A DNA stretch of 64,000 bases from Polaromonas naphthalenivorans CJ2 (GTDB lineage Bacteria > Pseudomonadota > Gammaproteobacteria > Burkholderiales > Burkholderiaceae_C), in the NCBI RefSeq assembly GCF_000015505.1, contig NC_008757.1:1-64000 (forward strand). The letters are read 5' to 3'. A program made the position numbers and the translations under genes. Below the pieces are notes generated by a model. That model was not told the DNA's origin and ran no database searches. It saw only the letters and a list, made by a program, of their open reading frames with translations. The number at the start of each line of letters is the position of its first letter. The stretch's first letter is position 1. Below, piece by piece: positions 12,403 through 58,312 of the stretch.

Positions 12403-12450
12403 CAGACTTAGCGGCTTTGGCTAAATTCAAAATAACAAAAAGGTCGAAAT

Positions 12451-40618: not shown

Positions 40619-41132
40619 AATCGACCGGCTGCATGCAGACTGACCGAGGATCTTTACGGCCTCGCTTTTGCGTTGACGTGCTATCGGACTTGTCGTTGCC
40701 GATGCTGGCACAACCTCATTGTGCGTGCAGCTTGAATGCATTTGCACCGCGCTTTGCCCTGCATCCGTTGCTGCGTTTGAGGAACAGTTCTTCGCACGCT
40801 TTCGCGCACGTTTGCGTGCGCCCCAACGTGCAGATGGCTTGCCCCGAGCGCGCCATGCCGCAGGCATGGTTGGCGCTCGTCGGCTGGCAGGCTGCGCGGG
40901 ACGCAGCGCCGCCGGGGCACCGCAGACCCGTGCCGTCAGGCAGGGGGAAGGTGCAGGGCAAGATTGAAGGGTCCGGCACGCTGCCGGCCCATAAGCGAGT
41001 CTGCACGTGGGGTTGGCGCGGCACGCGCTATTTGGCGGCACCGTGCCGTCAAGTTCGCCAAAGCCTTGTGGGCATTGGCGAAACCGCGTGCATGGCACGC
41101 CCTGGTCGGATGGCCGTGGCTGGAGTATCCGC
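40619..41132. other. Interval between traF and relaxase, candidate oriT
   Basis: A 173-codon frame (40615-41136) overlaps both neighbours by ATGA, but its cysteine- and serine-rich composition does not resemble a real protein. I therefore leave the interval unannotated as coding. A GC-rich inverted repeat, CCGGCA-CGC-TGCCGG at 40973-40987, lies 145 bases before the relaxase start. Relaxase genes of this kind often have oriT next to them, so a nic site here is plausible but not demonstrated. Confidence 0.35.
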
Positions 41133-43408: not shown

Positions 43409-43422
43409 TAAACGTTCGTTTA
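43409..43422. promoter_or_regulatory. TetR-type operator upstream of the cargo regulator
   Basis: TAAACG-TT-CGTTTA is a compact inverted repeat 32 bases before the TetR start codon, in an AT-rich interval that probably contains the promoter. Its form is typical of TetR-family autoregulatory sites. Confidence 0.65.
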
Positions 43423-43454
43423 GTTTCAGAATCGCCCGACTCAGGAGGAATTCG

Positions 43455-44072
43455 ATGGCTGAGAAAGCCCCCAAGAAGAAAAAGATGCGCGAAGAGGTGC
43501 TGGAACGGTCGGTTCCGCTCTTCGCAACGGTCGGATTTGACGGGGTTTCGATGCGTGATATCGCGGCTGCCGTGGGTGTGACGCCTGCCGCCCTCTACCA
43601 CCACTTTTCGGACAAGGAGCAGCTCTATCTGGATGCGGTCGGCTATGCCTTCGAAGAAAAGGTGGGGCCCTTGAAGACACTCCTGGACGGTGGAGGAAAT
43701 CCCTGGGAGCGGATCGAGGCATTCATCACGCGGCTTGCGAACCTACTCGCCGCCGAGCGGGACTTTCTACGCCTGATGCAATGGGTGCTGCTGGACAGCG
43801 ATGAACGGCGCCAACGTAGCCTGGTGGACTGCGTTTTTAGAGACCTGTTCAACGCACTGCGCGATTTCGCCGCAGAACTCGCTCCGGGCCATGACGCCCA
43901 TCGGCTTGCCGTTTCGATAATCGGCTTGGTGCTCTATCCCTTTGAAACCCAGTCGGTGCGACGTTTCCTGCCGGGCTACACCCACCAGCAGGAAGACCCC
44001 GAGGCCATTGCGCGGCATATCGTCGGCTTGCTACGCAACGGTCTCGGCGGAATCAACGAGGAAAATCCATAA
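43455..44072 (+). CDS. TetR-family regulator of the cargo module
   Basis: A 205-residue TetR repressor. The basic N-terminus MAEKAPKKKKMREEVLERSVPLFA leads into the HTH FDGVSMRDIAAAVGVTPAALYHHFSDKEQLY, followed by a ligand-binding helical domain. AGGAGG lies seven bases before the ATG at 43455; upstream frame residues are not coding. It is the first gene of the cargo and reads in the same direction as the envelope/efflux genes, so it probably controls them and itself through the operator at 43409. Confidence 0.9.
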   Translation: MAEKAPKKKKMREEVLERSVPLFATVGFDGVSMRDIAAAVGVTPAALYHHFSDKEQLYLDAVGYAFEEKVGPLKTLLDGGGNPWERIEAFITRLANLLAAERDFLRLMQWVLLDSDERRQRSLVDCVFRDLFNALRDFAAELAPGHDAHRLAVSIIGLVLYPFETQSVRRFLPGYTHQQEDPEAIARHIVGLLRNGLGGINEENP

Positions 44073-44141
44073 CAACGCCCTGTCTAGGGCAAACGTGCGG
44101 AGCAGACGTACCCTGCTCTATAACTGCAAGGAGAAGAAGCG

Positions 44142-44729
44142 ATGAAACTACAAAAATGGTTAGTCCTGTCGGTACTGGTGATCGGCGCAAGTGCACAGGC
44201 GGCGGAAGACCCCGCGGCAAAGCCGGTCGAGCCGGCCAAGGTGTCCGTGCTGCAGAAAGCGGAGGAAGGTGCGAAGAAGGCGGCCGAGGAAGCCAAAGAG
44301 GCGACGCGCAAAGCCGCAGAAGCCGCCAAGCTGGCTGTAGATAAGGCTGAGCAGGCCGTCAGTGAAGCCTCGCAGAAAACCGCGGAAGCTGCCCGGCAGG
44401 CGGCACGGGATGCTGATGAAGCCGCCAAGCTGGCTGTACGCAAGACCGCAGAAGCCACTCGAAAAGCAACCGCAGCCACCAAGGAAGCCGCGCAGAAGGC
44501 CGAGGAAGCCGCTAAAAAAGCAGCCGTAGCCACCAAGGAAGCTGCACAGAAAGCCGAAGAAGCCGCCAAAAAGGCGGCCAAATCTGGCAAAGAGGCTGCG
44601 CAGAAAGCGGCCGAAGCCACGCGGGACGCCGCACAGAAAACCACTGAAGCCACCCGAGAGGCTGCCGACAAGGCGCTTGAGGCAACCAAGGAAACGGCTC
44701 GGAACGTCAAAGATGCCGTGACGAAGTAA
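44142..44729 (+). CDS. Exported LEA-like alanine/lysine-rich repeat protein
   Basis: A 195-residue protein with a cleavable signal peptide (MKLQKWLVLSVLVIGASAQA) followed by ~150 residues of 11-residue repeats of the type AxKAxEAAKKA, like group 3 late-embryogenesis-abundant proteins and phasins. Such amphipathic helices fold on membranes or protect proteins during stress. It should act in the periplasm. AAGGAG precedes the start and an intrinsic terminator follows, so it may be expressed separately from the rest. Confidence 0.8.
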   Translation: MKLQKWLVLSVLVIGASAQAAEDPAAKPVEPAKVSVLQKAEEGAKKAAEEAKEATRKAAEAAKLAVDKAEQAVSEASQKTAEAARQAARDADEAAKLAVRKTAEATRKATAATKEAAQKAEEAAKKAAVATKEAAQKAEEAAKKAAKSGKEAAQKAAEATRDAAQKTTEATREAADKALEATKETARNVKDAVTK

Positions 44730-44732
44730 CCC

Positions 44733-44764
44733 TTATCGGGCAGGCTGCTTGCCCGATAAATTTT
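44733..44764 (+). terminator. Intrinsic terminator after the first LEA-like gene
   Basis: TTATCGGGCA (44733-44742) and TGCCCGATAA (44750-44759) form a perfect 10-bp stem with a seven-base loop, followed by ATTTT. Confidence 0.88.
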
Positions 44765-44816
44765 CACAGCGTTGCGCTTTCATTTTTTATTTTTATCACT
44801 GATCGAGAGGTATGCC

Positions 44817-45263
44817 ATGTCTAAATCCAACACACCCAGTTCCACGACCAAAGACAAACTGATTGCCGACATAAAGCAGATTGTCGCCGATGCCGATGCG
44901 CTCTTGCAGGCTACTACCGATCAAGCCAGCGAGAAGGTCGCCGACTTGCGCATCGGCCTTCGGAAAAACCTGAAGACGGCCCAAGGCCGACTTGCCGAGT
45001 TCGAGGCCACCGCCGTCGACAAAACCACGGAAGCCATCCGGGAGGCACTGCAAAAAATCTCGGAAGCGGCCAATCAAGCGACTGTAGCCACCATGGAAGC
45101 GGCGCAGAAGGCCGAGGAAGCGGCCAAAAAAGTGGCGGGGTCCGGTAAAGACGCGGCCCAGCACGCCGCAGAAGCCGCCAGGGATGCAGCCCAGAAAGCA
45201 GTTGCCGCCACCAGGGAGGCCGCCAACAAGGCACTGGATGCAATGCAGGATTGGATGCGATGA
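44817..45263 (+). CDS. DUF883/LEA-like protein with frameshifted C-terminus
   Basis: A 148-residue protein without signal peptide. The N-terminal ~55 residues (TTKDKLIADIKQIVADADALLQATTDQASEKVADLRIGLRKNL) resemble ElaB/YqjD/DUF883 ribosome- or membrane-associated proteins. The rest carries LEA-like repeats close to those of its upstream neighbour (ATMEAAQKAEEAAKKVAGSGKDAAQHAAEAA). The frame ends MQDWMR at 45263, but the next frame from an overlapping ATG at 45260 reads MTEMARKAKDTINK, matching the expected family end. I infer a frameshift near 45250. GAGAGG supports the start at 44817. Confidence 0.75.
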   Translation: MSKSNTPSSTTKDKLIADIKQIVADADALLQATTDQASEKVADLRIGLRKNLKTAQGRLAEFEATAVDKTTEAIREALQKISEAANQATVATMEAAQKAEEAAKKVAGSGKDAAQHAAEAARDAAQKAVAATREAANKALDAMQDWMR

Positions 45264-45475
45264 CGGAAATGGCCCGGAAGGCCAAAGACACCATCAACAA
45301 GTAGCTCTTGGCACGCACGACCTGGTCGCATCGGCGGACGGGTCGTGGAAGGCCCGCGCCTAGGCGACGCGATGAGGTAACAGCTATCGCAGCCACCAGG
45401 GCTGCTGGTATTTTTATGCGCGGCACCGCCATGACACCCGGTTGTTCAGGTCATCACTTCAGGAGGATCACTATC

Positions 45476-46177
45476 ATGCAAAACGAAACAGGCAACAATA
45501 TTGGCGGCAGTAACGATGCAGTGATGCTCGAAGCTGAAGTGCGTAGCGCCGTCGAGCAGGGTCACGATGTGCAGGAAATGGTGCGGCAGCTCACCTTGCG
45601 CAAGATCAGTGCGCGCTCGCTCGATATCGAATCCCTGCGACAGATCGCGCGTGCCGTGCTGAGCGGCGCGCGGGCCGGCGCACAAAAGGAGTTGCAGCAG
45701 TCAGCGGCACAAACCGAAATCATGCGGACACGCCTCAAACAGGCCGTCGCTGGGCTGGACGCGGCGTTGGCGCAGTTTGCCGAAGCCTCCAAACTGGCGG
45801 TGGAAGAAGCGGCGGTCCGGGCGCAGACATTTTCCCGTGAGGACCTCGCCCGTGCGCGCACCGACCTGGAAAGCCTGGAGGCGATGTTCCTGGAAACCCT
45901 GCAAAGCTCGGCCTCGGGTGCCAAGGATGCCGCAGGAGAAATCCTGTCCGATCTGGCGAGGCACGCCCGCCTCTATGGCTCCGCCGTGCGCGCACAGTTG
46001 AAGGAAACCCTGGCCGTCATCACGCACCAGCTTGGCACGGCGGGACGCACTCAGGTTGTTGCCGGCTTGCATCTGGCACAAGCCACTTCCGACCTGCTGC
46101 GCCAAATCGCTGCCGGCGTGCTCACCGGCCTGGCCGATCACGTCAAACCCGGCCATTCCCAAGGCAAGGGCAACTGA
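45476..46177 (+). CDS. Helical protein of unknown function (possibly DUF6781)
   Basis: A 233-residue soluble protein, almost entirely helical. The N-terminal part, EAEVRSAVEQGHDVQEMVRQLTLRKISARSLDIESLRQIARAVLSGARAGAQ, is followed by long amphipathic helices rich in Ala, Glu and Gln. It resembles proteins annotated DUF6781, but I am not certain. AGGAGG lies nine bases before the ATG at 45476. Its stop overlaps the start of the UbiB-like gene (TGATG), tying it to the operon. Confidence 0.7.
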   Translation: MQNETGNNIGGSNDAVMLEAEVRSAVEQGHDVQEMVRQLTLRKISARSLDIESLRQIARAVLSGARAGAQKELQQSAAQTEIMRTRLKQAVAGLDAALAQFAEASKLAVEEAAVRAQTFSREDLARARTDLESLEAMFLETLQSSASGAKDAAGEILSDLARHARLYGSAVRAQLKETLAVITHQLGTAGRTQVVAGLHLAQATSDLLRQIAAGVLTGLADHVKPGHSQGKGN

Positions 46178-47925
46178 TGCTGTGGCAGGCCCTGACCGCA
46201 GTGCGCGACATCGGCCGCCTGCATGACATCACCTCGATCCTGATCCGCTACGGCTTTGGCGACATGGTGCGCCGGATGGGACTGGCCAATGCCCTGGAGC
46301 GGGCCGGGCGGGCGCTGCACTGGAACGAAGCGCAGGAACTGGCTCATCTCGACCCGCCCGCCCGGGTGCGGCGCGCGCTGGAGGAATTGGGGCCGACCTT
46401 CGTCAAGCTAGGCCAGGTGCTTGCCACCCGCATCGACCTGTTCGAGCCAGAATGGATCGCCGAATTCGGCAAGCTACAGGACAGCGCACCCGCTGCCTCC
46501 TACGCCGGGATACGTCAGCAGCTCACCGAAGACCTGGGCGCACCGCCCGAGGAGGTGTTCGCCGCCTTCGACCCCGAGCCGCTGGCGGCCGCCTCCGTCG
46601 CACAGGTGCACCGCGCCCGCCTCGAAGACGGCAGCGAGGTGGTAGTCAAAGTACGTCGGCCAGGCATCCGGCCGATCATCGAAGCCGACCTGCGCTGGCT
46701 CGCCAGACTGGCGAAACTCGCTGAGGGGGAAAGTCCGGAACTGCGCGCCTTTCGCCCGCAGGAAGTGGTGCGCCAGTTTAGCCAGTCGCTGCGGCGCGAA
46801 CTCGATTTCGCTGGCGAATGCCGCAATGCCGAGCACATCGCGGAGAATTTTGCCGGCTATACCGACAAAGACGAGCCCACCGGCGACGCCTCTGCCGAAG
46901 CTGCGCCTGAACCGCCTCCGGCGCTCCCAATCATCATCATCCCCCGCGTCTATTGGCAATGGACCGGCGAACGGGTGTGCGTGCAGGAATTCATAGCCGG
47001 CATTTCCGGGCGCAAGCTTGCCACCGTCGACGAGGCCGGCCTCGACCGCAAGGTCCTCGCCCGCCGGGGCGCGCACGCAGTGTTGAAGATGATCGTCGAG
47101 GACGGCTTCTTCCACGCCGACCCGCACCCCGGCAACGTGTTTTACCTGCCCGGCAACCGCATCGCCTTCATCGACTTCGGCATGGTCGGGCGGCTCACCG
47201 AGGTGCGCCGCGACCAGTTGACCGGCCTGCTGCTGGGGCTGGTCAAGCACGAGCCGCGCCGCGTCGCCGACGTGATGCTCGACTGGACCGGCGACGGCGC
47301 CATGGATGAGGACGGCCTGCTTGTGGAAATCCAGACTTTTGTGCAGCAGTACCACGGCGTGGCGCTCAAGCAGCTCCGGCTCGGTGCCATGCTCTCCGAC
47401 TTGGTGGCCATTTTGCGTCAGCACCAGCTGGCCTTGCCGCCCGATCTGAGTCTGCTGATCAAGGCCTTCATCTCGCTCGAAGGCATGGGCCGCGAGCTCG
47501 ACCCCGACTTCGACATGGCCGGCGAGGCGATGCCTTTGCTGGAACAGGCGCTACGGGCACGTTATGCACCCACTGCGCTCCTCCAACGCGGCTGGCGAGG
47601 GGTCAGCGAAGCGCTTTCCCTGGTGGCCGGCCTGCCCCAGGATATCTCCCGGCTGTTGCGCGCCGCCCGGCGCGGCCGGCTGGAAATCCACATTGACATC
47701 ACGCACCTCAAGCGTGTCGGCAACCAGCTTGACAGCGCCGCCAACCGGCTGGTGGTCGGCATCGTCGTCGCCGCCCTCATCATCGGTTCCTCCATCGTCA
47801 TGACGGTGCCCGGCGGTCCTACCTTGCTGGGGCTACCCTTCTTCGGCCTGCTCGGCTTCGTCGGCGCCGTCATCGGCAGCCTCTGGCTGCTGCTTTCGAT
47901 CTGGCGTAGCGGGGGCAAGGAATGA
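46177..47925 (+). CDS. UbiB/ADCK (ABC1) family atypical kinase
   Basis: A 582-residue UbiB-family protein. The family-specific KxGQ motif (K77-L-G-Q80 in LGPTFVKLGQVLATR), the alanine-rich loop AAASVAQVHRA (137-147), the lysine in VVVKVRRPG, the catalytic HADPHPGN (313-320) and IDFGMVG are all intact. Two C-terminal hydrophobic helices (from about residue 525) anchor it in the membrane. Chromosomal UbiB supports ubiquinone biosynthesis; the family binds isoprenoid lipids. On this element it sits with lipid enzymes, so it may serve membrane lipids or quinones under stress. The start overlaps the upstream stop, and the end overlaps the next start (ATGA). Confidence 0.9.
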   Translation: MLWQALTAVRDIGRLHDITSILIRYGFGDMVRRMGLANALERAGRALHWNEAQELAHLDPPARVRRALEELGPTFVKLGQVLATRIDLFEPEWIAEFGKLQDSAPAASYAGIRQQLTEDLGAPPEEVFAAFDPEPLAAASVAQVHRARLEDGSEVVVKVRRPGIRPIIEADLRWLARLAKLAEGESPELRAFRPQEVVRQFSQSLRRELDFAGECRNAEHIAENFAGYTDKDEPTGDASAEAAPEPPPALPIIIIPRVYWQWTGERVCVQEFIAGISGRKLATVDEAGLDRKVLARRGAHAVLKMIVEDGFFHADPHPGNVFYLPGNRIAFIDFGMVGRLTEVRRDQLTGLLLGLVKHEPRRVADVMLDWTGDGAMDEDGLLVEIQTFVQQYHGVALKQLRLGAMLSDLVAILRQHQLALPPDLSLLIKAFISLEGMGRELDPDFDMAGEAMPLLEQALRARYAPTALLQRGWRGVSEALSLVAGLPQDISRLLRAARRGRLEIHIDITHLKRVGNQLDSAANRLVVGIVVAALIIGSSIVMTVPGGPTLLGLPFFGLLGFVGAVIGSLWLLLSIWRSGGKE

Positions 47926-50582
47926 GCGGATCGCAGACAGCGCAGGGGTTCGGTGCTGACCCGCTCATCGCGCTGGCGCTGGCGGCCGCGTTCACCCTGT
48001 TGGTCGCCCTGGCATGGCTTGCGCTGGTGCGGCAACGCAGCCGGGCGCGGCACCCGGCTTCGGACGTGCCAGCAGCGAGCGATGTCGGAGCCGCCCCGCC
48101 CAGAAAGATCGTCATCTTCTACTCGTCCATCGGCCACGGCCACATCAGCGCCGCGCAGGCCATCCAGGAGGAGATCGGCCGGCTGGCGCCGGGCGCGCGC
48201 GTGATCCTGCAGGACATCCGCGAGTTCATGCATCCGCTCTGGCGCTGGGTGGACGAGCGGCTCTACTGGTTCATCGCCGGCAATCTCCCGGAAAGCTTCG
48301 ACGCGCTGTTCCATGCCCTGCAGGCGCGTGGCAACCGGGTGCCCTCGCTGGCATGGCTGTCCAACGACTACCCGGAAGACCAGGTGCGCGCCTTCCTGGA
48401 GGCGCAGGCGCCCGACGCGATCCTTGCCACGCATTACGGATCGGCGCAGGTGCTCGGAACCTTGCGCGAGCGCGGGCTGCTGGCGCAGGTGAACATCGGC
48501 TGGCTGCACACGGACTTCTTCGAAGGCTATTTCCCGCGCATCTCGAAACGGATCGACCGCACCTTTCTCGCCCATCCCGAGCTGGAAGCGCGCTGGCTGG
48601 CCGCCGGCGTGGCACCCGACAAGGTCACCACCAGCGGCATGCCGGTGCGCGTTGCGGCCGCCGACGGCAGAACCCGGGAGATGGCGCTCACGGCGCTGGG
48701 TCTCGCCCCGGATGCGCCCACCGTGCTCATCACCTCGGGCAAGGAGGGGGTCGGCGACTACGCGCTTGTGGTGGAGAGCCTGGCCCGCCACCACCAAGGC
48801 CCGCTGCAGATCATCGCCGTCTGCGGCGCCAACGCGCGCCAGCAGGCGCTGCTGAATGTGTTGCGGATGGCGCTGCAAAAACGCCTGCCGGAGCCGGTGG
48901 CGCTGAAGGTCTGCGGCCTGGTGCCGCACGCCGACCTGCTGGCCTGGATGCGCGCGGCCGACCTGTTGATCACCAAGGCCGGGGGCATGACGCCGGCCGA
49001 GGCCTTCGCCGTGGGCACGCCGACGATCCTGCTGGACGTGGTGAGCGGCCATGAGCGCGAAAACGCCGCCTTGTTCGTCCGGCTGGGGGTGGCCGAGCTG
49101 GCCGACACCCTGGCGCAGGCGGGCGAGCTGGCGGCCGCCGTGCTGGCCGACCCGCAGCGGCAGGCGGCGATGCGCCACGCCCAGCACGCCTTTCACGACA
49201 GTGCCGACCTCGGGCGCATCGCCCGCTTCGCGCTCGACCCGGCCCTGCCCGCGCCGGGTATGACGCCGGACTTCGGCGCCGAGCACGGTAGTGCCGTCAC
49301 CGACATCGACGCGGCGCTGGCGCGGCTCCAGGCCGAGGCGCCCTGCGACATCGAGCTGCTGCTGTCCTACTCGACCGCCCAAACACCGCAGCGCGTGGTG
49401 CTGGAAAACCCGTTCGGGCACATTGCCATCCGCGTCGACAACACCGTCTACAGCGCCAACTATGTGGCCGTGCCGGGACACGACCCGAACCTGTTGCAGC
49501 ACGTGACGCTGGCCGATTACCTGTACGGCGTGCAGCCGCCGTCGCCGTCGCAGGTGCACACCAACACCTACGGCATGGCCTACGGCCGCGAGACGCTGGG
49601 CTTGCGGGTGGCGGGCGTGGCGGCAGAGCGCAAGGCGGCGATGGTGGCCGAGGCGCACCGGATCGAAGATGAGTTTGGGCAAGGCCGCCTGCTGTGGGAT
49701 CGCAGCGAGTTCAATTGCGCCGACGTGGTGGTGCGCATCCTGCGTGCGGGCGGCTACGACCGCTCGCCACCGCTGGGGCGGCGGTGGCTGCCGGTCATGC
49801 CGCTGGACATTTTCGAGGAAGCCCGGCAGACCTGCGAGGAAGACGCGTCCTTGTACATGGAACTGGTGGCCTACCGGCAGATACCGGGCGCCAACGCGGC
49901 CTATCGCTTCTCGCGTTTTCCGCTCTCGCTCGGGCAACCGCTGCGCTCGGTGGCGCGGGCGCTGCGCGAGGCGCCGCAAGAACCCCTCGAAGCGGCCGCG
50001 ACCAAACAGCTGACCGGTTATTTCGGCGACCACCAGCTTTATTTCGAGGATCTGCGCGGCCACGGGGCTGGCGCCCTGGCCGACGATCCGGCGCATTTCA
50101 GCCGCGTGCAGCGCAGCTTGGCCGACGCCCTGGCGACCGACCTGCGGCGCTTGCTGGCGGCCCAAGCCAGACGGCCCCTGCGCGAGATCGGGCGTCTGGG
50201 TGAGCTTGATGGCGCCCAGGACATCCGGCGCCTGCTGGAGCGCAGCCTGGCGCTGGCGCGCATCGCCACCGAACGGGCCGACGAGGTGCTGCAAGACCGG
50301 GGGGCGCGGCGCATGCGGGCGCTGTTTACCGAACTCGTGGACGGGTACGGCCGGATCGGCGCCTGGCACCTGCGGCGCCAGGAGATCGAGGCCTATCTCA
50401 AGCGCTTCCAGGTCTTCGAAGCCGCCGTGGGGCGTGAATTCCCTGCCCGCCATGGCGCGCGGCTCGCGCGGGCCACGACGCTCCGGCGCTCACTGCGGTA
50501 CGGTATCCGGCGTCTGTGCCGGCGCGTCGGTGGGCGGCACCGGCCCACGGGTCATGGGCCGGACAAGGGGGCAAGCCAATGA
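47922..50582 (+). CDS. MGDG-synthase-like glycosyltransferase fused to a papain-like (permuted NlpC/LRAT-type) domain
   Basis: An 886-residue fusion. An N-terminal transmembrane helix (residues 14-36) precedes an MGDG-synthase-type glycosyltransferase: KIVIFYSSIGHGHISAAQAI and GWLHTDFFEGYF in the N-terminal half, ITSGKEGVGDYAL and ITKAGGMTPAEAFAVGTPTIL in the GT28-like C-terminal half. A second domain (about 470-630) has a His in PFGHIAIRVDNTVYSANY and a Cys in FNCADVVVRIL, the order of permuted NlpC/P60, YiiX and LRAT-type enzymes. Residues beyond ~650 are helical and unassigned. It may make a glycolipid and cut or transfer an acyl or peptide group; this is inference. ATGA overlaps join both neighbours. 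Confidence 0.8.
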   Translation: MSGSQTAQGFGADPLIALALAAAFTLLVALAWLALVRQRSRARHPASDVPAASDVGAAPPRKIVIFYSSIGHGHISAAQAIQEEIGRLAPGARVILQDIREFMHPLWRWVDERLYWFIAGNLPESFDALFHALQARGNRVPSLAWLSNDYPEDQVRAFLEAQAPDAILATHYGSAQVLGTLRERGLLAQVNIGWLHTDFFEGYFPRISKRIDRTFLAHPELEARWLAAGVAPDKVTTSGMPVRVAAADGRTREMALTALGLAPDAPTVLITSGKEGVGDYALVVESLARHHQGPLQIIAVCGANARQQALLNVLRMALQKRLPEPVALKVCGLVPHADLLAWMRAADLLITKAGGMTPAEAFAVGTPTILLDVVSGHERENAALFVRLGVAELADTLAQAGELAAAVLADPQRQAAMRHAQHAFHDSADLGRIARFALDPALPAPGMTPDFGAEHGSAVTDIDAALARLQAEAPCDIELLLSYSTAQTPQRVVLENPFGHIAIRVDNTVYSANYVAVPGHDPNLLQHVTLADYLYGVQPPSPSQVHTNTYGMAYGRETLGLRVAGVAAERKAAMVAEAHRIEDEFGQGRLLWDRSEFNCADVVVRILRAGGYDRSPPLGRRWLPVMPLDIFEEARQTCEEDASLYMELVAYRQIPGANAAYRFSRFPLSLGQPLRSVARALREAPQEPLEAAATKQLTGYFGDHQLYFEDLRGHGAGALADDPAHFSRVQRSLADALATDLRRLLAAQARRPLREIGRLGELDGAQDIRRLLERSLALARIATERADEVLQDRGARRMRALFTELVDGYGRIGAWHLRRQEIEAYLKRFQVFEAAVGREFPARHGARLARATTLRRSLRYGIRRLCRRVGGRHRPTGHGPDKGASQ

Positions 50583-51550
50583 ACGAACCACAAACCAGCA
50601 AAGCCCCGGCGGCAAGCCTGACGCCGCCCAAGCGGCCCCGGATCGGCCTGGCGCTGGGCAGCGGTTCGGCGCGCGGTCTGGCGCACGTCGGCGTGCTGCG
50701 CGCCTTGAAAGAGGCCAACATCGAGATCGACCTGGTGGCCGGCACCAGCATGGGGGCGGTCATTGGCGCTGTCTTTGCCTCGGGCAAGATTGACGGCCTG
50801 AGCGCCAGACTGCGCAATCTCGACTGGCCGGGCATCGTCGCCCTGCTCGACCCGGTGTTTCCCCGCTCGGGGCTGATCGACGGCCAGCGGGTCGCCGAAT
50901 TCGTGCGCGCCCATGTGCCAAGCGCCCATATCGAGGGCCTGTTGCTGCCCTTTGCCGCGGTGGCCACCGACCTCATGACGGGAGAAGAAGTGGTGACCAC
51001 GGCAGGCGACCTGACCGAAGCGGTGCGTGCCAGCATCGCCGTGCCCGGCATCTTTACCCCGGTGCGCAGCAACGGCCGCATCCTGGTCGATGGCGGGCTG
51101 GTCAATCCGGTGCCGGTGAGCGTGGCGCGCGCCATGGGGGCCGACCTGGTCATCGCGGTCGACCTCAACCACGACATCGTGGCGGGCCGGCTGTCCCACC
51201 CCGCCGCCCACGCCAATGGCAACGGCCATGGCCCCATCATGGCGCGCCTGCTGGAGAGCCTGCGGGCCATCAATAGCCCGGTGCTGGCGCAGTTCGAGGC
51301 CTGGCTGCACAAGCCCACTCTGGAGCCGCTACCAGGCATTTTCGAGGTGCTGCTCGCTTCGATCTACATCATGCAGGCGCGCGTCACCGAAGCCGACCTG
51401 CGGCAAACCCAACCCGACCTCCTGATCCAGCCGCCGCTGGGCGCGGTGCGCTTCATGGAGTTCGACCGCGCCGAAGAAATCATCGACATCGGCTACCGCA
51501 GCGCGGCCGAGCAACTGGCCCGCTGGACAAGAACGCCAACCCATGACTGA
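50579..51550 (+). CDS. Patatin-like phospholipase (RssA type)
   Basis: A 323-residue patatin. The oxyanion-hole motif GSGSARGLAH begins at residue 27, the nucleophile is Ser57 in GTSMG, and the dyad aspartate is D171 in LVDGGLVNP. Patatins are acyl hydrolases acting on membrane phospholipids or related acyl esters. The start at 50579 overlaps the preceding stop (ATGA). Position between the glycosyltransferase and the prenyl-synthase-like protein supports a lipid-remodelling role. Confidence 0.9.
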   Translation: MNEPQTSKAPAASLTPPKRPRIGLALGSGSARGLAHVGVLRALKEANIEIDLVAGTSMGAVIGAVFASGKIDGLSARLRNLDWPGIVALLDPVFPRSGLIDGQRVAEFVRAHVPSAHIEGLLLPFAAVATDLMTGEEVVTTAGDLTEAVRASIAVPGIFTPVRSNGRILVDGGLVNPVPVSVARAMGADLVIAVDLNHDIVAGRLSHPAAHANGNGHGPIMARLLESLRAINSPVLAQFEAWLHKPTLEPLPGIFEVLLASIYIMQARVTEADLRQTQPDLLIQPPLGAVRFMEFDRAEEIIDIGYRSAAEQLARWTRTPTHD

Positions 51551-52352
51551 CACGCATCCCATGAACTTCCCCGAGACCGTGATCGCCGGCGTCCACGCCG
51601 CCGTGGCGAGCACCCTGACCTGCGAGGCCGTGCCGGTCCGCGGCGCCTTGCGCCTGTTGCTGTTAGGCCAAAATACCCCTATCCGGGCACTGGTGACCTG
51701 CAGCCTCCATGCAGGGCAGCCTGGCATCGACGCCGGCACGGCGCTGGACCTGATCCACATCGGCCTGCAGCAGTTGCATGCCCACGTTGACGCGACGACC
51801 GGCGCGTCCGCGCTACTGGGCACCGGCGCCACCGTGCTGGCGGGTGACTACCTGACCACCGGGGCTTTTCGCTTGCTGGTGCGCTGCGCTGACCTGCAGG
51901 TCCTGGCCCTGGTTTCCGATGCGGTCAACCGGGCTTCGGAACTGGAGGCCACCCAACTGGGCCTGGATCCAGACGCCCGAGACGATCCGTCGCGGCTGTT
52001 GCAGACCCGGCAACAACTGGCGGCACCGCTGGGTGAGGCGGCCGGCGCCACAGGCGCCACCCTCGCGGGCTACCCGGAGCCGCTCGCCGGCACGGCCCGG
52101 CGTTACGGCCAATACCTTGTTTCAAGCCACGTTTTGCAACAGGAAGCCGATGCCATGGACATCTCCGAGGCACGCACGGCCCTGCAGGACGCCGCGCTCG
52201 ATCTGTGCCGCCAGGCAAGGCGGGAAGCGCGGACCATCGCGGCGGCCACAGGCAATGGGCGCCCGCTCGAACTGGCTGAACTGATCGCGGCCAGCCTTGG
52301 CGCCAAGGCATCGGCATGCAAACCCAAAACTATTACCTCGACATCATCATGA
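51543..52352 (+). CDS. Degenerate polyprenyl-synthase-like protein
   Basis: A 269-residue all-helical protein. Segments align by eye with trans-isoprenyl diphosphate synthases: LDLIHIGLQQLHAHVD at the place of the first helix pair, GTGATVLAGDYLTTGAFRLL resembling the conserved AVLAGDxLL helix, and YGQYLVSSHVLQQEADAMD in place of the second aspartate-rich helix. The DDxxD motifs themselves are missing, so prenyl transfer activity is unlikely. It could be a structural or isoprenoid-binding partner for the UbiB-like kinase. It overlaps the patatin gene by eight bases and the next gene by ATGA. Confidence 0.55.
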   Translation: MTDTHPMNFPETVIAGVHAAVASTLTCEAVPVRGALRLLLLGQNTPIRALVTCSLHAGQPGIDAGTALDLIHIGLQQLHAHVDATTGASALLGTGATVLAGDYLTTGAFRLLVRCADLQVLALVSDAVNRASELEATQLGLDPDARDDPSRLLQTRQQLAAPLGEAAGATGATLAGYPEPLAGTARRYGQYLVSSHVLQQEADAMDISEARTALQDAALDLCRQARREARTIAAATGNGRPLELAELIAASLGAKASACKPKTITSTSS

Positions 52353-53449
52353 AAGACCCTCTTGTGAAAAAAAGAAAAAACCTCCTCCTCTACTTGGCGC
52401 CGCTGGCGCTGGCCGCACTCCTGGGTGCTTGCGGCAAAGCGCCGGAGGCCCCTGCCGCATCAAATACGACCAGCCGCCCCCTGCCGGTCATGACCGCGTC
52501 CGCCGGGGCGCCGCTCGAATACACGGCGGTCGGCTCGGTGGTGTCGGACCAGCGCGTCGAGGTCGCCTCACGGCTGAGCGGCTATATCCGCGACATGCTG
52601 GTGCAGGAGGGTGACCGGGTGCGGCGCGGGCAGTTGCTGACCCGCCTTGACGCATCGGATGTGGAAGGCGGCATCCGCCAGGGCCAGGCGGCGGGCGGCG
52701 CGGCAGAGGCGGCGCTGCGCGATGCGCAGATTGACCTGGAGCGCTTCCAGCGTTTGTTCGAGCGCGGCAGCGTCTCGGACAACGAATTGCGCAAGGTGCG
52801 CCTGAAATTCGAGGCCGCGCGCGAGGCCCGTAACCAGGCGCGCGCCGGTCTCGACACGGCGCTGGCCCAGCGCGCCTACGCCGAAATCACCAGCCCGGTG
52901 GACGGCGTGGTGGTGGCGCGCCACAAACGAACGGGCGACCTCGCCCTGCCCGGCATGCCGCTGCTGACCCTGGAGTCGGGCCGCGGCCTGTTGTTCGAGA
53001 CCTTCGTGGCGGAGGGCCAAGTCGCCGCCATCGCGGCCGGCCAGCCGGTGCAAGTCAACATCGACGGCGTGCCCGCGGCGCTCAAGGGCACGGTGAGCCG
53101 GGTGGTGCGCTCGGGCGACCCGGTCTCGCGCAGCTACCAGGTCAAGATCACCCTGCCCGAGACGGCGGGGCTGATGCCCGGCATGTTCGGGCGTGCGGCG
53201 TTCGGGCTCGGTGCGAGCCAGGCGCCATTGGTGCCCAGACAGGCGTTGGTCGAGCGCGGCGGGCTCACCGGTGTCTTCGTGGTTGATGCCGAAGGCCGGG
53301 CACGCTTTCGCTGGCTGCGCATAGCCCGCGAGTGGCCCGATCAGGTCGAGGTGAGTGCTGGTCTGGCCGCCGATGAGCGCTTCGTGGCAGCGGCTACACC
53401 GGCCCTGCGCGAGGGCGACCGCGTCACCGCCGCGAAGGAGGCGCAATGA
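52349..53449 (+). CDS. RND efflux periplasmic adaptor (lipoprotein)
   Basis: A 366-residue membrane fusion protein. A lipoprotein signal peptide (MKDPLVKKRKNLLLYLAPLA, lipobox LGAC with Cys28) precedes the HlyD/AcrA-type layout: barrel-sandwich half (VASRLSGYIRDMLVQEGDRVRRGQLLTRLD), a helical hairpin, the second half (YAEITSPVDGVVVARHKRTGDLA) and a beta-barrel domain. I start at ATG 52349, which overlaps the preceding stop as ATGA; an ATG at 52316 would add residues before the signal peptide. It links the RND pump to the outer-membrane channel. Confidence 0.92.
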   Translation: MKDPLVKKRKNLLLYLAPLALAALLGACGKAPEAPAASNTTSRPLPVMTASAGAPLEYTAVGSVVSDQRVEVASRLSGYIRDMLVQEGDRVRRGQLLTRLDASDVEGGIRQGQAAGGAAEAALRDAQIDLERFQRLFERGSVSDNELRKVRLKFEAAREARNQARAGLDTALAQRAYAEITSPVDGVVVARHKRTGDLALPGMPLLTLESGRGLLFETFVAEGQVAAIAAGQPVQVNIDGVPAALKGTVSRVVRSGDPVSRSYQVKITLPETAGLMPGMFGRAAFGLGASQAPLVPRQALVERGGLTGVFVVDAEGRARFRWLRIAREWPDQVEVSAGLAADERFVAAATPALREGDRVTAAKEAQ

Positions 53450-56400
53450 GCCAGCACAAGCTCAACAGCGCCGGCCGCCTGGCGAATCTCTTTGTCACCT
53501 CCAAGCTGACCATTTTGTTCATGCTGGCCTGCATCCTGCTGGGGCTGCTGGCCGTGACGCTGACCCCGCGCGAGGAAAACCCCCAGATCGTGGTGCCCGG
53601 CGCCCAGGTATGGGTGACACTGCCCGGCGCCTCTGCCGAGGAGGTGGAGGAACTGGTGATCCGCCCGCTGGAGGGCATCGTCAAGCAGATTGCCGGCGTT
53701 GATCACACGTATGCGACCGCCATGAATTCGATGGGCGTGTTGATGGTGCAGTTCAAGGTCGGCGAGGACAAGGAAAAATCGCTGGTCAAACTCTACGACC
53801 GGGTGCTGGGGCAGCGCGAGCGCCTGCCTGCGGGCGCGGGCGAGCCGCTGATTCGCAGCGTGGATGTGGACGACGTGCCCATTGTCACCGTCACGCTGGC
53901 CTCCGAGATCTACGACGATTACGCCCTGAAGCGTCTGGCCGACCGCCTGATGGAAGGACTGCGCAGCCTGGACAAGGTCTCTGCCATTTCCGTCAAGGGC
54001 GGGCGCGACCGGGAACTGCGCATCGAGCTGGACCCGCAGCGTCTGCAAGCCTTCGGCGTCACGCTGGACCAGGTGCATGCCACCCTGCGCGCAAGCAATG
54101 TTGCCGCGCCCCTGGGAACGGTGGTGCAACAGGGCCAAAACCGCCAGGTGTTCCTGGACGGCTTTCTCAGCTCGGCGCAAGACCTCAAGCGCGTGATCGT
54201 GGGCAGCCATGCCGGGCGCCCGATCTATCTGGGCGATGTGGCACAGGTCGTCGACGGCCCGCCGCAAGAGCGCACGCACCTGAGCCGTCTTGCATTTGGC
54301 CCGGCCGATGCGCGCTTTGGCAAGACGCAGCAGGCGGAGATGCCGGCCGTCACGCTGGCAGTGGCCAAGAAAGCCGGTAGCAACGCCGTCTTTGTTGCCA
54401 ACGATGTGCTTGAGCGCATCGATCGGATGAAGGCCCAATTCGTACCGGCAGGGGTCGAACTGGTCGTCACCCGCAACGACGGCGAGAAGGCGGATGCCGC
54501 CGTGTCCGGGCTGATCGAGCACCTGGGTATCGCGGTGCTGGCCGTGTTCCTGGTGACTGCTGCGTTCCTGGGTCTCAAGGAGGCACTGATCGTGGGCGTG
54601 ACCGTGCCGCTGATCCTGGCCCTGACTCTGGGCGCTGCCTATCTCTTTGGCCTGTCCATCAACCGCGTTTCGCTGTTCGCGCTCATCCTGTCTCTGGGGC
54701 TGCTGGTCGATGGCGCGATTGTCGTGATCGAAAACATCCACCGCAACTACAGCCGTCTTGGCAAGCAGGACAAACGGCTGGTCACGGTGCAGGCCACCAA
54801 CGAAATCGGCAACCCCACCAACCTGGCGACGCTGGCGGTCATGCTGGTGTTCGGCTCGCTGCTGGTGGTCAGCGGCATGCCGGGGCAGTATTTCTACCCC
54901 GTCGCTTTCAACGTGCCGGTCGCCATGGCGGCCTCGCTCTTGGTGGCCTACGCGGTGGTGCCCTGGGCCGCCAACCGCTGGCTCAAGCCCGGTGAAGGGC
55001 ACGATCTGGAAGACCACGATACCCAGGACCGCCTGCATCGTTTCTACCGTCATGTGATGTCGCCGCTGGTGGATCGCTCGCGCAGCCGCTGGCTTGCGTT
55101 CCTGTTGGCGGGATTGGCCATTGCCGTATCGCTGTTGCAACCGGCCTGGCAGTTCGTGCGCCCGTCCGGTTTGGGCGGGCCGCAGTCCTGGTTCGGCGTC
55201 GAGCTGGCCATGATGCCCAAGGACGACAAGAACACCTTCAACATCACCTTGGACATGCCCGCGACCGCGCCGGTGGAGGCGACTGATCGGTTCGCGCGCG
55301 AAGTCGGTGCGCTGCTGCGCGAGAACGCCTACGTTCGCAACTACCAGAGCTGGATCGGCGAGGCCGGCGTGATCGACTTCAATGGCTTGCTGCGTGGTTC
55401 CGGCAATAAGCAAGGGGCACACGTCGCCGAGATCCGCGTCAACCTGCTGAACAAGGCTGATCGAAGTAAGACCTCGATAGCCATCGTGCGCGAATTGCGG
55501 CCCACACTGCAGGCTATGGCCGCGCGTTACCCCGGCAGTACGGTGCAGTTGGTCGAGGACCCGCCCGGGCCGCCGGTGCGCGCCACCGTGCTGGCCGAAA
55601 TCTACGGCAAGGACTTGCAACAACTGCGCACGCTGTCCGCGCAGGTCAAGGCGGCCTTCCAGCAGACGCGCGACATGGTGGAGGTGACCGACTCCGAGGC
55701 CCAGGACGTCCACCAGTACCGCCTGACGGTGGACCGGGAAAAGGCCGCGCTGTCCGGGCTGAGCGTGGCCGAAGTAGCCGTCGCGCTGCGTCGCCTGATC
55801 GACGGCGAGGAAATGGGTCGGGCCCGCATCGCCGGCGAGAAGAACCCCGTGCCCATCCGCTTGCAGATTCCCCGGCGCCACCAGATCGACCCCGCGCTGC
55901 TGGCACGCGTGTCTGTGACCAACCGGCAGGGCCAGCGGGTGCCGCTGTCCGAGGTGGTGCAAGTCGTCCCCGGCTCAGTCGACCGGGCGATTTCGCACAA
56001 GGATGGCGAACGCGTCACCTACGTCGGCGGCGAACTGGAATCCACCGCCCCTGTGTACGCCGTGCTTGACCTTGACCGGCGACTGGACGGCTTGCTGCTC
56101 GCCGATGGCAGCCGCCTCACCACCGGCAACCTGCGCCTGAACCCGGTCGCGCCCGACACCCTGGAGGGCCCCCGCCTGCTGTGGGACGGCGAACTGCGCA
56201 TGACGCTGGACACCTACCGCGACATGCTGGGCGCGCTGGGCCTGGCGCTCACCTTCATCTTTCTGGTGCTGGTGGCTTATTACCGGTCGTTCAGCCTGCC
56301 GCTGGTTGCCATGGCGGCGATCCCGCTGGGACTGGCCGGCATCTTTCCGGGGCACTGGCTCATGGGCCCGCCCTTCACCGCCACCTCCATGATCGGCATC

Positions 56401-56727
56401 ATCGCCCTGGCTGGCGTGGTGGTGCGCAACTCGCTGCTCATCATCGACTTCGTGCTGGACTACCGGCGCCAGGGCATGGACTTGCGCGAGGCCATCCTCG
56501 AAGCTGGGGCGGTGCGCCTGCGGCCCATCCTGCTCACCGCTTTGGCCATCGTGCTGGGCAGCGCCGTGATGCTGAGCGACCCGGTGTTCGGCGGGCTGGC
56601 AATCTCGCTGATTTTTGGCACGCTGGCATCCACCGTGCTCACCCTGATCGTTGTGCCGCTGTTGCTGTATCTGCTGCTGCGCTACAAGGACCAGAACGAA
56701 GCAAGCCTGAAAAAAGGAACCCCATGA
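53446..56727 (+). CDS. RND-family efflux transporter
   Basis: A 1093-residue AcrB-type inner-membrane pump with two sets of transmembrane helices and large periplasmic loops. Family blocks include EENPQIVVPGAQVWVTLPGASAEEVEELV at the start and LGLLVDGAIVVIENIHRN in helix 4, which retains a single Asp where AcrB has two. The later GDGELRMTLDTYRDMLGALGLA and RLRPILLTALAIVLGS are also seen. The single proton-relay Asp and EENP start place it with the less studied export/efflux subgroup related to metal and unknown-substrate pumps. ATGA overlaps connect it to adaptor and outer-membrane genes. Confidence 0.93.
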   Translation: MSQHKLNSAGRLANLFVTSKLTILFMLACILLGLLAVTLTPREENPQIVVPGAQVWVTLPGASAEEVEELVIRPLEGIVKQIAGVDHTYATAMNSMGVLMVQFKVGEDKEKSLVKLYDRVLGQRERLPAGAGEPLIRSVDVDDVPIVTVTLASEIYDDYALKRLADRLMEGLRSLDKVSAISVKGGRDRELRIELDPQRLQAFGVTLDQVHATLRASNVAAPLGTVVQQGQNRQVFLDGFLSSAQDLKRVIVGSHAGRPIYLGDVAQVVDGPPQERTHLSRLAFGPADARFGKTQQAEMPAVTLAVAKKAGSNAVFVANDVLERIDRMKAQFVPAGVELVVTRNDGEKADAAVSGLIEHLGIAVLAVFLVTAAFLGLKEALIVGVTVPLILALTLGAAYLFGLSINRVSLFALILSLGLLVDGAIVVIENIHRNYSRLGKQDKRLVTVQATNEIGNPTNLATLAVMLVFGSLLVVSGMPGQYFYPVAFNVPVAMAASLLVAYAVVPWAANRWLKPGEGHDLEDHDTQDRLHRFYRHVMSPLVDRSRSRWLAFLLAGLAIAVSLLQPAWQFVRPSGLGGPQSWFGVELAMMPKDDKNTFNITLDMPATAPVEATDRFAREVGALLRENAYVRNYQSWIGEAGVIDFNGLLRGSGNKQGAHVAEIRVNLLNKADRSKTSIAIVRELRPTLQAMAARYPGSTVQLVEDPPGPPVRATVLAEIYGKDLQQLRTLSAQVKAAFQQTRDMVEVTDSEAQDVHQYRLTVDREKAALSGLSVAEVAVALRRLIDGEEMGRARIAGEKNPVPIRLQIPRRHQIDPALLARVSVTNRQGQRVPLSEVVQVVPGSVDRAISHKDGERVTYVGGELESTAPVYAVLDLDRRLDGLLLADGSRLTTGNLRLNPVAPDTLEGPRLLWDGELRMTLDTYRDMLGALGLALTFIFLVLVAYYRSFSLPLVAMAAIPLGLAGIFPGHWLMGPPFTATSMIGIIALAGVVVRNSLLIIDFVLDYRRQGMDLREAILEAGAVRLRPILLTALAIVLGSAVMLSDPVFGGLAISLIFGTLASTVLTLIVVPLLLYLLLRYKDQNEASLKKGTP

Positions 56728-58019
56728 ACCGCTCGATAAAAATTCGCGGCCTGTTGCCGCTGGCGGCTCTGGCCGCTGCGCTGCTTGCCGGCAACGCCGC
56801 CGCCGAGTCCCTGCAACAGGCATGGGACATTGCACTGACCGTTGACCGTGGGCTCAAAGCCTCACGCGAAAGCACCGCCGCCGCGTCCAGCCTGCTGGAT
56901 GCGGCCAAATCCGCCCGCCTGCCCAACCTGGCGCTGGAGGCGGGCTATACCGCCCTCGATAAGGCACCGGCGGCCAGGGTTGATTTTTTTGGCCAGTCGC
57001 TGCAAATGCCGCTGGCGCAAAAGGACAGCGCCGCCTACCGCGCCATGGCGACGCTTCCGCTCTACACCGGTGGTCGCATTGAGCGCGGCATTGACGCGGC
57101 CACGGCAGGCATGGATGCGGCGCGGCTGGGCGAAACCGCCGATGCACAGAACCTCAAACTGCGCGTGGCGGATGCCTATGTCAACGTGCTGCGCGCCAGC
57201 CGCATGCTGAAGGTCACTGAGAGCCACGTCGCCAGCCTGCAGGCCCATGCGCGTGACGTGGGCAACCTGCACGAGCAGGGCATGGTGGCCAAAAGCGACC
57301 TGCTCTCTGTGCAGGTGGCCCTGGCCGATGCGCGCCAGCGCCATCTGCAGGTGGCCAATGGGCTGGATCTGGCGCGCGCCGCCTACAACCGCCTGCTGGG
57401 GCGGCCGCTGGATCAGCCCGTCGCGCTCGACGACCTGTCGCCCGAGACGGCGCAAGAGCCGCTCCCCGCCCTGAGCGAGCGGGCACTGGCCCGGCGCAGC
57501 GAGCTGGCGGCACTGGCGCGTCAAATTGAAGCGATGCGCCACCAGGCCGCCGCCGTGCGCGGCGAAACCGCCCCGCAGGTCGCGCTGTCCGGCGGTTACG
57601 GCTACCAGGAGAACCGCTATCAGGTGCATCAAGGGCAATGGATGGTCACCCTGGGGGTCAAGTGGAGCCTGTTCGACGGTGGCGTGGTCAGCCACCGCGC
57701 CAATGCTGTCGAGCGCCAGGCCGCGGCATTGACGGAGCAACGCGATGAGCTGGCCTCCATCATCGCCCTGCAGGTCCGCCAGACCTGGCTGGACGTGCAA
57801 GAGACCCGCAAGCGCCTCATCGTCACCCAGTCAGCCATCGCCCAGGCCGAGGAGAACCTGCGCGTGGCGCGCGACCGCTATGCCAACGGCCTGTCCACCC
57901 ATACCGAAGTGCTCGATGCCGAGACCTTGCGCACCGGCAGCGAGGGCAACCACGCCAATGCGCTGTCTGATGCCGCACTGGCGGGGTTGCGGCTGAAGCG
58001 CGCCACGGGTGAGCTCTGA
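56724..58019 (+). CDS. TolC-family outer-membrane efflux protein
   Basis: A 431-residue outer-membrane channel precursor. The signal peptide MNRSIKIRGLLPLAALAAALLAGNAAA is followed by two outer-membrane efflux repeats (SLQQAWDIALTVDRGLKASRE... and LSERALARRSELAALARQIEAMRHQ...) with GGYGYQENRYQVHQGQWMVTLGVKWSLFDGGV, the typical second beta segment. The start at 56724 overlaps the RND stop (ATGA); the longer frame upstream is a shadow of the RND gene. It completes a tripartite pump. Confidence 0.92.
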   Translation: MNRSIKIRGLLPLAALAAALLAGNAAAESLQQAWDIALTVDRGLKASRESTAAASSLLDAAKSARLPNLALEAGYTALDKAPAARVDFFGQSLQMPLAQKDSAAYRAMATLPLYTGGRIERGIDAATAGMDAARLGETADAQNLKLRVADAYVNVLRASRMLKVTESHVASLQAHARDVGNLHEQGMVAKSDLLSVQVALADARQRHLQVANGLDLARAAYNRLLGRPLDQPVALDDLSPETAQEPLPALSERALARRSELAALARQIEAMRHQAAAVRGETAPQVALSGGYGYQENRYQVHQGQWMVTLGVKWSLFDGGVVSHRANAVERQAAALTEQRDELASIIALQVRQTWLDVQETRKRLIVTQSAIAQAEENLRVARDRYANGLSTHTEVLDAETLRTGSEGNHANALSDAALAGLRLKRATGEL

Positions 58020-58038
58020 GTCTGAGGAGATGGATACC

Positions 58039-58179
58039 ATGAAAACACCCTCAAAACGCTGGCTCGTTCCGATGACGGTGGCCCTGCTTGCTATCATGGG
58101 CCTGACCGTCTGGTGGTTTCTGCTGCGCCAGCCGCCACTGCCCGCTGGCATGATCCAGGCCAACGGTCATGCTCGATGA
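58039..58179 (+). pseudogene. HlyD-family protein, N-terminal fragment
   Basis: A GAGGAGA RBS and ATG at 58039 open a 46-codon frame, MKTPSKRWLVPMTVALLAIM..., with one membrane helix and the PPLPAGMIQANG segment that begins YbhG/HlyD-type adaptors. It is cut after about 42 residues where the sequence becomes the relaxase 3' remnant, so a second adaptor, and perhaps further ABC-transporter genes, have been lost. Confidence 0.75.
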
Positions 58180-58312
58180 CGGCATGGGGTTCAGCTTGGT
58201 GCCATGGAGGCCGGTTATTGAACAGCGACTTGGACAGCAACTCGCCGCAACGGTGCATGGAGGAGGAGTATCTTGGGAAATTGGACGACAGCGAGGGCCT
58301 TCGGTCATTTAG
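58166..58312 (+). pseudogene. Second copy of the relaxase 3' end (remnant)
   Basis: The frame VMLDDGMGFSLVPWRPVIEQ, continuing RLGQQLAATVHGGGVSWEIGRQRGPSVI and a stop, matches the last 48 codons of the DUF3363 relaxase at 42948-43094 with about ten substitutions. Nucleotide divergence shows that it came from a related ICE rather than from recent duplication. It begins exactly where the HlyD fragment ends and overlaps the end of the AraC-type gene by eight bases. Confidence 0.92.

Follow-up and report, generated by a model that had tools for sequence, protein, structure and literature searches.

A putative TetR-controlled operon joining lipid-acting proteins to an RND efflux trio beside conjugation genes in Polaromonas naphthalenivorans CJ2

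The stretch of DNA analyzed here (the window) comprises 64,000 nucleotides of Polaromonas naphthalenivorans CJ2 (contig NC_008757.1, positions 1 to 64,000) and carries, at positions 43409–58019, a gene cluster consisting of an operator-like repeat, a TetR gene, genes for three helical proteins, and seven coupled genes, the last three of which encode a resistance-nodulation-division (RND) efflux trio. The genes and their order, first listed in an earlier note made from the sequence alone, are confirmed by profile matches and open reading frame positions, as follows.

43409..43422, no strand: operator-like inverted repeat TAAACGTTCGTTTA; relatives also have its core, AACGTTCGTT, upstream of their TetR gene or operon
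43455..44072, + strand: TetR-family regulator (PF00440, 58 bits)
44142..44729, + strand: Ala/Lys-rich amphipathic helical protein, late-embryogenesis-abundant (LEA)-like, with no Pfam family; signal-peptide-like start judged by eye
44817..45263, + strand: DUF883 helical protein (PF05957, 38.3 bits)
45476..46177, + strand: DUF6781 helical protein (PF20572, 149.9 bits), usual neighbor of this UbiB subfamily
46177..47925, + strand: ABC1/UbiB atypical kinase (PF03109, 238.4 bits) with KLGQ, AAAS, DPHPGN, and DFG motifs
47922..50582, + strand: fusion protein composed of a GT28/monogalactosyldiacylglycerol (MGDG)-synthase-like glycosyltransferase, a permuted NlpC/P60 (YiiX-like) domain, and a helical C-terminus (Pfam, fold comparison, invariant residues)
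50579..51550, + strand: RssA-like patatin with GTSMG and DGG (PF01734, 106.7 bits)
51543..52352, + strand: polyprenyl-synthase-like (PPS) protein without DDxxD (PF00348, 29.5 bits)
52349..53449, + strand: RND membrane-fusion protein (MFP; TIGR01730, 208.1 bits), with a lipobox-like LLGAC seen by eye
53446..56727, + strand: RND permease (PF00873, 515.6 bits)
56724..58019, + strand: TolC-type outer-membrane channel (OEP; PF02321, 194.1 bits)

Adjacent genes overlap at every junction from DUF6781 to OEP. The overlap is TGATG at DUF6781/UbiB and ATGA at five junctions (UbiB/fusion, fusion/patatin, PPS/MFP, MFP/RND, and RND/OEP). The TGATG or ATGA coupling reported in the earlier note therefore holds at six of the junctions, the patatin/PPS junction being instead an 8-base overlap (51543–51550). 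A promoter scan gave one site against 2.0 expected, and a terminator scan gave 20 against 13.5 expected. Of the two proteins first described as LEA-like, the upstream one keeps that description and the second belongs to DUF883; the protein that follows them is helical, as had been proposed, and its family is now set as DUF6781.

Searching the GTDB species genomes with the fusion protein as query yielded 26 loci (designated by L numbers), two of which (L024 and L025) are contigs of a single Zoogloea oleivorans copy with proteins 100% identical to those of the window. Thus, 25 distinct fusion-gene loci are present in 24 GTDB genomes, and the whole cluster, in the window order, is also found on plasmid 2 of Polaromonas JS666. 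Because several loci are near-identical (L012/L026; L017–L020), these are not 25 independent events, and all counts, being anchored on the fusion gene, are biased accordingly. A related RND permease (at least 58% identity) accompanies the fusion gene in 18 of the 25 loci (L016 is rearranged, and L005 and L024 are cut by contig ends). Near-full-length UbiB is present in 15, a remnant without the kinase part in four (L006, L010, L012, L026), and neither in six. The whole set (UbiB, fusion, patatin, PPS, and pump genes) occurs in 11 of the 25 (L003, L004, L005, L008, L017–L020, L021, L022, and L024/L025), among which L005 and L024 are incomplete at contig ends and L008 has its fusion gene in two pieces. 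Linkage is therefore conserved, and an assembly unique to this strain, a possibility raised in the earlier note, is ruled out by the relatives in GTDB genomes and on the JS666 plasmid.

The cluster is rare. In an order-level sample, the fusion protein and the PPS protein were each found in 1 of 399 genomes, the positive being the window's own genome, and among 61 relatives (own genome included) there was one positive. The same genome carries a second copy of the cluster head (G000:C9:2650630–2659431, L038), extending from TetR to the fusion gene with 83–92% DNA identity; an IS66 family transposase gene disrupts its fusion gene, which is cut off further on, and that stretch yielded no pump genes.

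Three gene orders are distinguished. Order A (helical proteins–UbiB–fusion–patatin–PPS–MFP–RND–OEP) is found in the window, L001 (where the PPS gene is missing), L003, L004, L005, L008, L024/L025, and L027. Order B (DUF6781–UbiB–patatin–PPS–fusion–MFP–RND–OEP) is found in L017–L020. Order C (MFP–RND–OEP–UbiB–patatin–PPS–fusion) is full in L021 and L022; L013–L015 have it without patatin and PPS genes, and L012 and L026 likewise, with a UbiB remnant in addition. In L021, a CecR-type regulator gene and genes for two helical proteins follow. The 8-base patatin/PPS overlap is present in 11 of 11 loci measured, across A, B, and C, and A-order relatives keep overlaps of 1 to 8 bases, with L003 (20-base gap) and L008 as exceptions. 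Large negative PPS/fusion gaps computed for the B loci were rejected as an artefact of the start-codon search and represent no real overlaps.

The pump and the lipid-acting genes trace these orders differently. The RND tree pairs A with B as sister groups and places C among plasmid pumps of Roseibium and Sphingopyxis; the UbiB tree instead pairs A with C (support 99) and puts B together with another Zoogloea copy. Both are quick trees with support from the Shimodaira–Hasegawa-like approximate likelihood ratio test (SH-aLRT) only. Identities between A and B versus A and C are 84 versus 58% for RND, and 65 versus 73–78% for UbiB. The conflict between the trees over the kinship of the orders indicates that the pump and lipid modules came together on more than one occasion; as judged from these comparisons, the two modules have different histories, yet are found together. 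Looser associations exist on other plasmids. A Roseibium plasmid has a related RND gene (58%), with UbiB (55%) and DUF6781 (34%) genes about 4 kb away on the other strand. Plasmid pBN3 of Paraburkholderia aromaticivorans has a patatin gene (91%) and 28 residues of the PPS gene near cyclohexanecarboxylate genes, and on an Ideonella plasmid, a 246-amino-acid PPS relative (40%) is the sole cluster gene seen in the stretch.

The earlier proposal of a TetR regulator with an operator is supported by the sequence. A perfect inverted repeat (TAAACG-TT-CGTTTA), the sole such site in the window, precedes the TetR gene and recurs in relatives. Against a per-locus null in 20 loci, one of which (L025) is identical to the window, the exact AACGTTCGTT core lies no more than some 120 bases upstream of the TetR gene in 11 (chance per locus, 0.000–0.018), with one mismatch in five and two or more in four; a separate motif count in 13 loci is biased, as those loci were chosen for holding the motif. 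Of the four loci with two or more mismatches, three do hold the exact site: in L005 and L027 it precedes a gene inserted before the TetR gene, and in L034 its orientation is reversed; overall, the exact core stands at the operon head in 14 of the 20. The exact-site loci include L016, an acidobacterial metagenome-assembled genome (MAG) whose TetR is 49% identical, and L006 has no operator-like site. We infer that the cluster is co-regulated, at least in the A and B orders, from this putative operator-like site. The gene between the site and the TetR gene is of alkene-reductase type in both L005 (494–1579, Oxidored_FMN) and L027 (14263–15339, annotated alkene reductase) and looks as if it had been recruited to the regulon. 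In the Roseibium aggregatum plasmid (L034, L037), a TetR/CerR region occurs in two places with the same protein accessions at both.

The glycosyltransferase part of the fusion protein matches MGDG_synth (PF06925, 45.9 bits) and the GT28 C-terminal domain (PF04101, 36.3 bits), both over their cut-offs, and has a GT-B fold whose best match is Arabidopsis MGD1 (model-based template modeling score 0.77 by target). The match to PRK13609 (119.2 bits) is far under the equivalog cut-off of 500. MGDG synthase and diglucosyl-diacylglycerol synthase share the two domains and the MGD1-like fold; unlike these known members, the cluster protein also carries a fused permuted NlpC/P60 domain and a tail of helices. 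Residues 450–886 have no Pfam match up to E 1. His500 and Cys599, in His-before-Cys order, are invariant in 25 of 25 aligned proteins (L008, in two pieces, and the partial L024 and L025 were left out; the folding alignments also omit L020 and L027), as are several Tyr and polar residues. Fold comparison matches the C-terminal domain to known permuted NlpC/P60 members, and His500 and Cys599 would form the catalytic pair of such a domain. A profile search of this domain against PDB sequences returned short unrelated stretches, none passing alone (best E 0.0013, a designed protein). The domain shares fold and residue order with YiiX, Bacillus cereus 3kw0, TseH, RID, and LRAT-like enzymes, and differs from them in being undetected by Pfam and fused to a glycosyltransferase. 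The papain-like domain of the earlier note is accordingly retained as a Cys-His domain fused to an MGDG-type transferase and reassigned as permuted NlpC/P60; a canonical papain protease is ruled out by the absence of a Pfam match and the permuted residue order. A glycosyltransferase–NlpC/P60 architecture was not met in the accessible portions of the literature examined.

The cluster UbiB keeps the hallmarks of the ABC1/UbiB/COQ8 superfamily, namely KxGQ, an Ala-rich loop, HPGN, and DFG (KLGQ77, AAAS137, DPHPGN315, and DFG333). Its score for the NCBIfam UbiB equivalog TIGR01982 (445.1 bits) is below the cut-off (487.55), and a long branch sets its clade apart from canonical UbiB, five presumed housekeeping copies being 32–38% identical; a plain housekeeping UbiB is thereby ruled out. 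The remnants in L006, L012, and L026 keep the N-terminus and membrane tail; their boundaries differ between L006 and L012, and L026 was judged by match positions. DUF6781 is found in 18 of 369 genomes of the class, and UbiB adjoins it in 15 of 17 loci outside the window's genome (in pieces in L065; not in L067 and L073). In L060, the order is TetR–MFP–RND–DUF6781–UbiB–patatin. In L061, the DUF6781–UbiB pair lies beside tatC (Pfam), tatA/B-like genes (by eye), and hisIE-like genes, and the same genome (G535) has a canonical-type UbiB elsewhere. A literature search on DUF6781 returned nothing relevant. Amphipathicity, as the z score of the hydrophobic moment against shuffles, is 9.4 for the LEA-like protein, 4.9 for DUF883, and 2.9 for DUF6781; the two L021 helical proteins, which have only weak sub-cut-off matches (e.g., apolipoprotein), give 2.6 and 0.7.

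The patatin dyad is intact (GTSMG55 and DGG171). The PPS protein is nearest to octaprenyl diphosphate synthases, and DDxxD is absent in the window protein and, by eye, in 12 of 12 aligned rows (L024, identical to the window, is left out). The description of a degenerate prenyl-synthase-like protein, with a PF00348 match and no DDxxD, thus stands; an active prenyl synthase is ruled out, and the missing motif counts against isoprenoid synthesis.

With ACR_tran matching residues 21–1077, the RND permease is full length, and its MFP and OEP partners score over cut-off. In AcrB and MexB, an Asp pair in transmembrane helix 4 forms the HAE-1 proton relay; this helix has Val421-Asp422-Gly423 where the aligned MexBYB chain has VDD, so that the AcrB/MexB-type pair is missing. 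A search of plasmids gave at least 5000 records, and the three closest relatives above 50% identity among the matches listed were examined in context; in a Sphingopyxis stretch, such a pump stands by itself, no further gene of the cluster having been found there. The TtgABC, TtgDEF, TtgGHI, and SrpABC operons of Pseudomonas are solvent-efflux RND operons, partly plasmid-borne, and have in common with the cluster a local repressor, an RND trio, and a solvent or hydrocarbon context. Unlike the cluster, they are not known to contain UbiB, glycosyltransferase–NlpC/P60 fusion, patatin, or PPS genes.

The cluster is flanked by conjugation and hydrocarbon genes, as follows.

41007..43094, + strand: relaxase with DUF3363, directly 5′ of the cluster (DUF3363, 503 bits; RlxS relaxase, 634.6 bits, below the model cut-off of 850)
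58039..58166, + strand: truncated start of a second MFP gene (ABC-exporter partner in relatives; 82–90% DNA identity to L008, L001, L027, and L003)
58169..58302, + strand: 3′ end of a second DUF3363 relaxase gene, at the recombination junction (81% to L013–L015; 72% to the window's own relaxase gene)
59556..61814, + strand: fused ferredoxin-reductase/XylM-AlkB-like monooxygenase, a neighbor (close relatives in two other genomes of 25 searched)

Plasmid relatives of the upstream relaxase are annotated as relaxase/mobilization nuclease and DUF3363. A DUF3363 relaxase gene, which we take to be a marker of Tn4371-type elements, adjoins the cluster in the window, L013–L015, L021, L022, and L025, in agreement with the earlier view of the cluster as conjugative-element cargo; a relaxase of the MobH/PFGI-1 class of integrative and conjugative elements (ICEs) precedes the B-order cluster of L017, and L027 is typed as a conjugative plasmid. 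The cluster had been drawn to end at 58179. The operon ends at 58019, 58020–58166 is the cut-off MFP start, and 58169–58302 is the relaxase end. At 58166–58169, the window switches from the second-MFP start (full in L001 and L003) to the relaxase 3′ end, and we read this point as the place where two elements recombined and where the cluster truly ends on its right side in the window. On this reading the window copy is itself a recombinant, cut at 58166.

Biphenyl-type genes (BphC, a Rieske ring-hydroxylating alpha subunit, and a DmpG-type aldolase) lie upstream of the relaxase gene, and an AraC gene, the XylA/XylM-like fusion (XylMA) gene, and a GMC dehydrogenase gene lie downstream of the cluster, so that the biphenyl and alkane-type cargo named in the earlier note is indeed present. 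XylMA adjoins the cluster both in the window and in L021, two clusters that differ in gene order, and we grade this as more telling than its presence in a genome. Diesel, oil, toluene, or aromatics are named in the record titles of 6 of the 24 genomes (L002, L004, L017, L018, L020, and L023).

The cluster is therefore proposed, with about an even chance of being right, to be a mobile, TetR-controlled and repressible operon for membrane adaptation and efflux in life with hydrocarbons. What this proposal builds on is observed: the genes present and how tightly they are coupled, the operator-like site that recurs, repeated linkage in several orders, the reassembly of modules, the position by conjugation genes, and rarity. 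TetR would be released by a hydrophobic inducer, and the amphipathic helical proteins would coat lipid surfaces. The DUF6781–UbiB pair may use ATP to open access to membrane lipids or quinones, the glycosyltransferase may make a glyceroglycolipid, and the fused YiiX-like Cys-His domain may move or remove an acyl chain. The patatin, whose gene overlaps that of a seemingly catalytically dead prenyl-synthase-like partner, is predicted to hydrolyze acyl lipids. Together, the lipid-acting proteins would re-tune the inner membrane, and the RND trio would remove the hydrophobic compound. A bolder version, unlikely to hold as worded, predicts a mobile "membrane-armor" machine under operator control, in which a bifunctional glycosyltransferase–acyltransferase makes an acylated glyceroglycolipid, the ATP-using UbiB paralog and amphipathic coat proteins mobilize lipid substrates, the patatin, guided by its dead isoprenoid-binding partner, recycles leftovers, and a matched RND pump clears hydrocarbons from the rebuilt membrane.

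Several results weigh against the adaptation-and-efflux operon. The families are not always accompanied by the RND trio, as the earlier note had envisaged, since 7 of the 25 loci (L002, L006, L007, L009, L010, L011, and L023) have no related pump; in L007, L011, and L023, the fusion gene is alone in the stretch examined, and patatin fragments in L006, L009, and L010 make some loci look decayed. In order B, 266 bases separate the fusion gene from the pump genes, and the exact AACGTTCGTT site is absent from all seven C-order loci, with another regulator type (CecR) in L021. The structure models of the fusion protein are of moderate confidence (predicted local distance difference test, 66.7 and 72.0), and Foldseek gave no match for the C-terminal domain at E ≤ 0.001. 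As to the hydrocarbon link, PF02332 (phenol/toluene monooxygenase) is commoner in cluster genomes, being over cut-off in 7 of 25 (24 plus the window's own) versus 9 of 200 order genomes (10 at E ≤ 0.001), a Fisher p of 0.0005 that is not corrected for kinship, four of the seven positives being Zoogloea or Aromatoleum. Yet it is absent from the other 18, the window's own included. Close XylMA relatives occur in 3 of the 25 (own; L021 and L022 genomes, 81%) and, at the same threshold, in 3 of the 200 (own and two at 56–60%), and presence alone is thus weak evidence.

In a rival explanation, the enzymes form one biosynthetic machine that makes an acylated (or isoprenoid-linked) glycolipid, which the RND trio exports to the outer membrane or medium. 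The coupling of the enzymes to the pump in order A and their proximity to it in B and C suit such a machine, as do a glycosyltransferase that looks intact and a Cys-His domain with invariant residues. We nevertheless consider it unlikely: the seven pumpless loci keep the enzyme, L006 has instead a double-ABC protein and an ABC-2 permease downstream, the Sphingopyxis pump occurs with no other cluster gene found, and the PPS protein lacks DDxxD. Nothing tested favors the specific chemistry of the earlier note, one machine for an exported glycolipid or isoprenoid-linked product, over membrane adaptation and efflux.

The gene set might alternatively serve quinone homeostasis, the UbiB paralog and DUF6781 redistributing or protecting ubiquinone under hydrocarbon disturbance and the rest providing supporting stress functions. 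The UbiB motifs are kept and the L061 pair lies beside tat genes, and the yeast UbiB-family proteins Cqd1 and Cqd2 are reported to alter cellular coenzyme Q distribution (PMC8346625). The sub-cut-off UbiB score, the long branch, and the three loci (L006, L012, L026) that lost the kinase part and kept the fusion gene make this quite improbable. Accretion of unrelated cargo, with no shared function, in a hot spot that follows conjugative relaxase genes would fit the position of A- and C-order clusters beside the DUF3363 relaxase gene (window, L013–L015, L021, L022) and the recombination at 58166. It accords poorly with one gene set in three orders, the kept overlaps, the recurrent operator-like site, the re-association indicated by the two trees, and the other carriers (the JS666 conjugative plasmid, the MobH-type ICE relaxase beside L017, and the Roseibium plasmid), and it too is given little credence.

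Pumps, altered fatty acids, and general stress responses are the usual explanation of tolerance to solvents and hydrocarbons. An operon that can be transferred and that links lipid-remodeling enzymes with a pump would make a portable trait, of use in bioremediation and biocatalysis. The cluster is also a testable setting for the DUF6781–UbiB pair and for the glycosyltransferase fused to a YiiX-like domain, and the joining of the same modules more than once is a natural experiment. In line with the earlier statement that no named system has this composition, literature searches combining the component names found no paper naming or describing the set, which is weak evidence of novelty because subscription papers mostly fell outside them.

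Among mobile elements, Tn4371-family ICEs with biphenyl genes or RND pumps share with the window bph-like genes and, presumably, the DUF3363 relaxase. RND pumps described as mex/oqx-related are listed as accessory genes on elements of Congregibacter litoralis KT71 and Pseudomonas aeruginosa 2192 (PMC2789088). In ICE papers searched by term, no patatin turned up, nor did any lipid-enzyme gene within the terms used for each paper. Genes for an MFP and a double-ABC protein, as in YbhFSR-type ABC exporters, follow the cluster in L001 (Pfam) and L017 (by eye), whereas only the truncated MFP start is left in the window; a ybh cluster is reported on ICEbph-salKF710 and KF716 (PMC9960961). In the Sphingobacteriia MAG locus L023, a VTT/DedA-like gene (12406–12760) overlaps the fusion-gene end. 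The window also has a phage-integrase-family gene at 12751–14004 and, on the minus strand of its upstream flank, a gene for a HipA-like C-terminal domain at 6104–7399.

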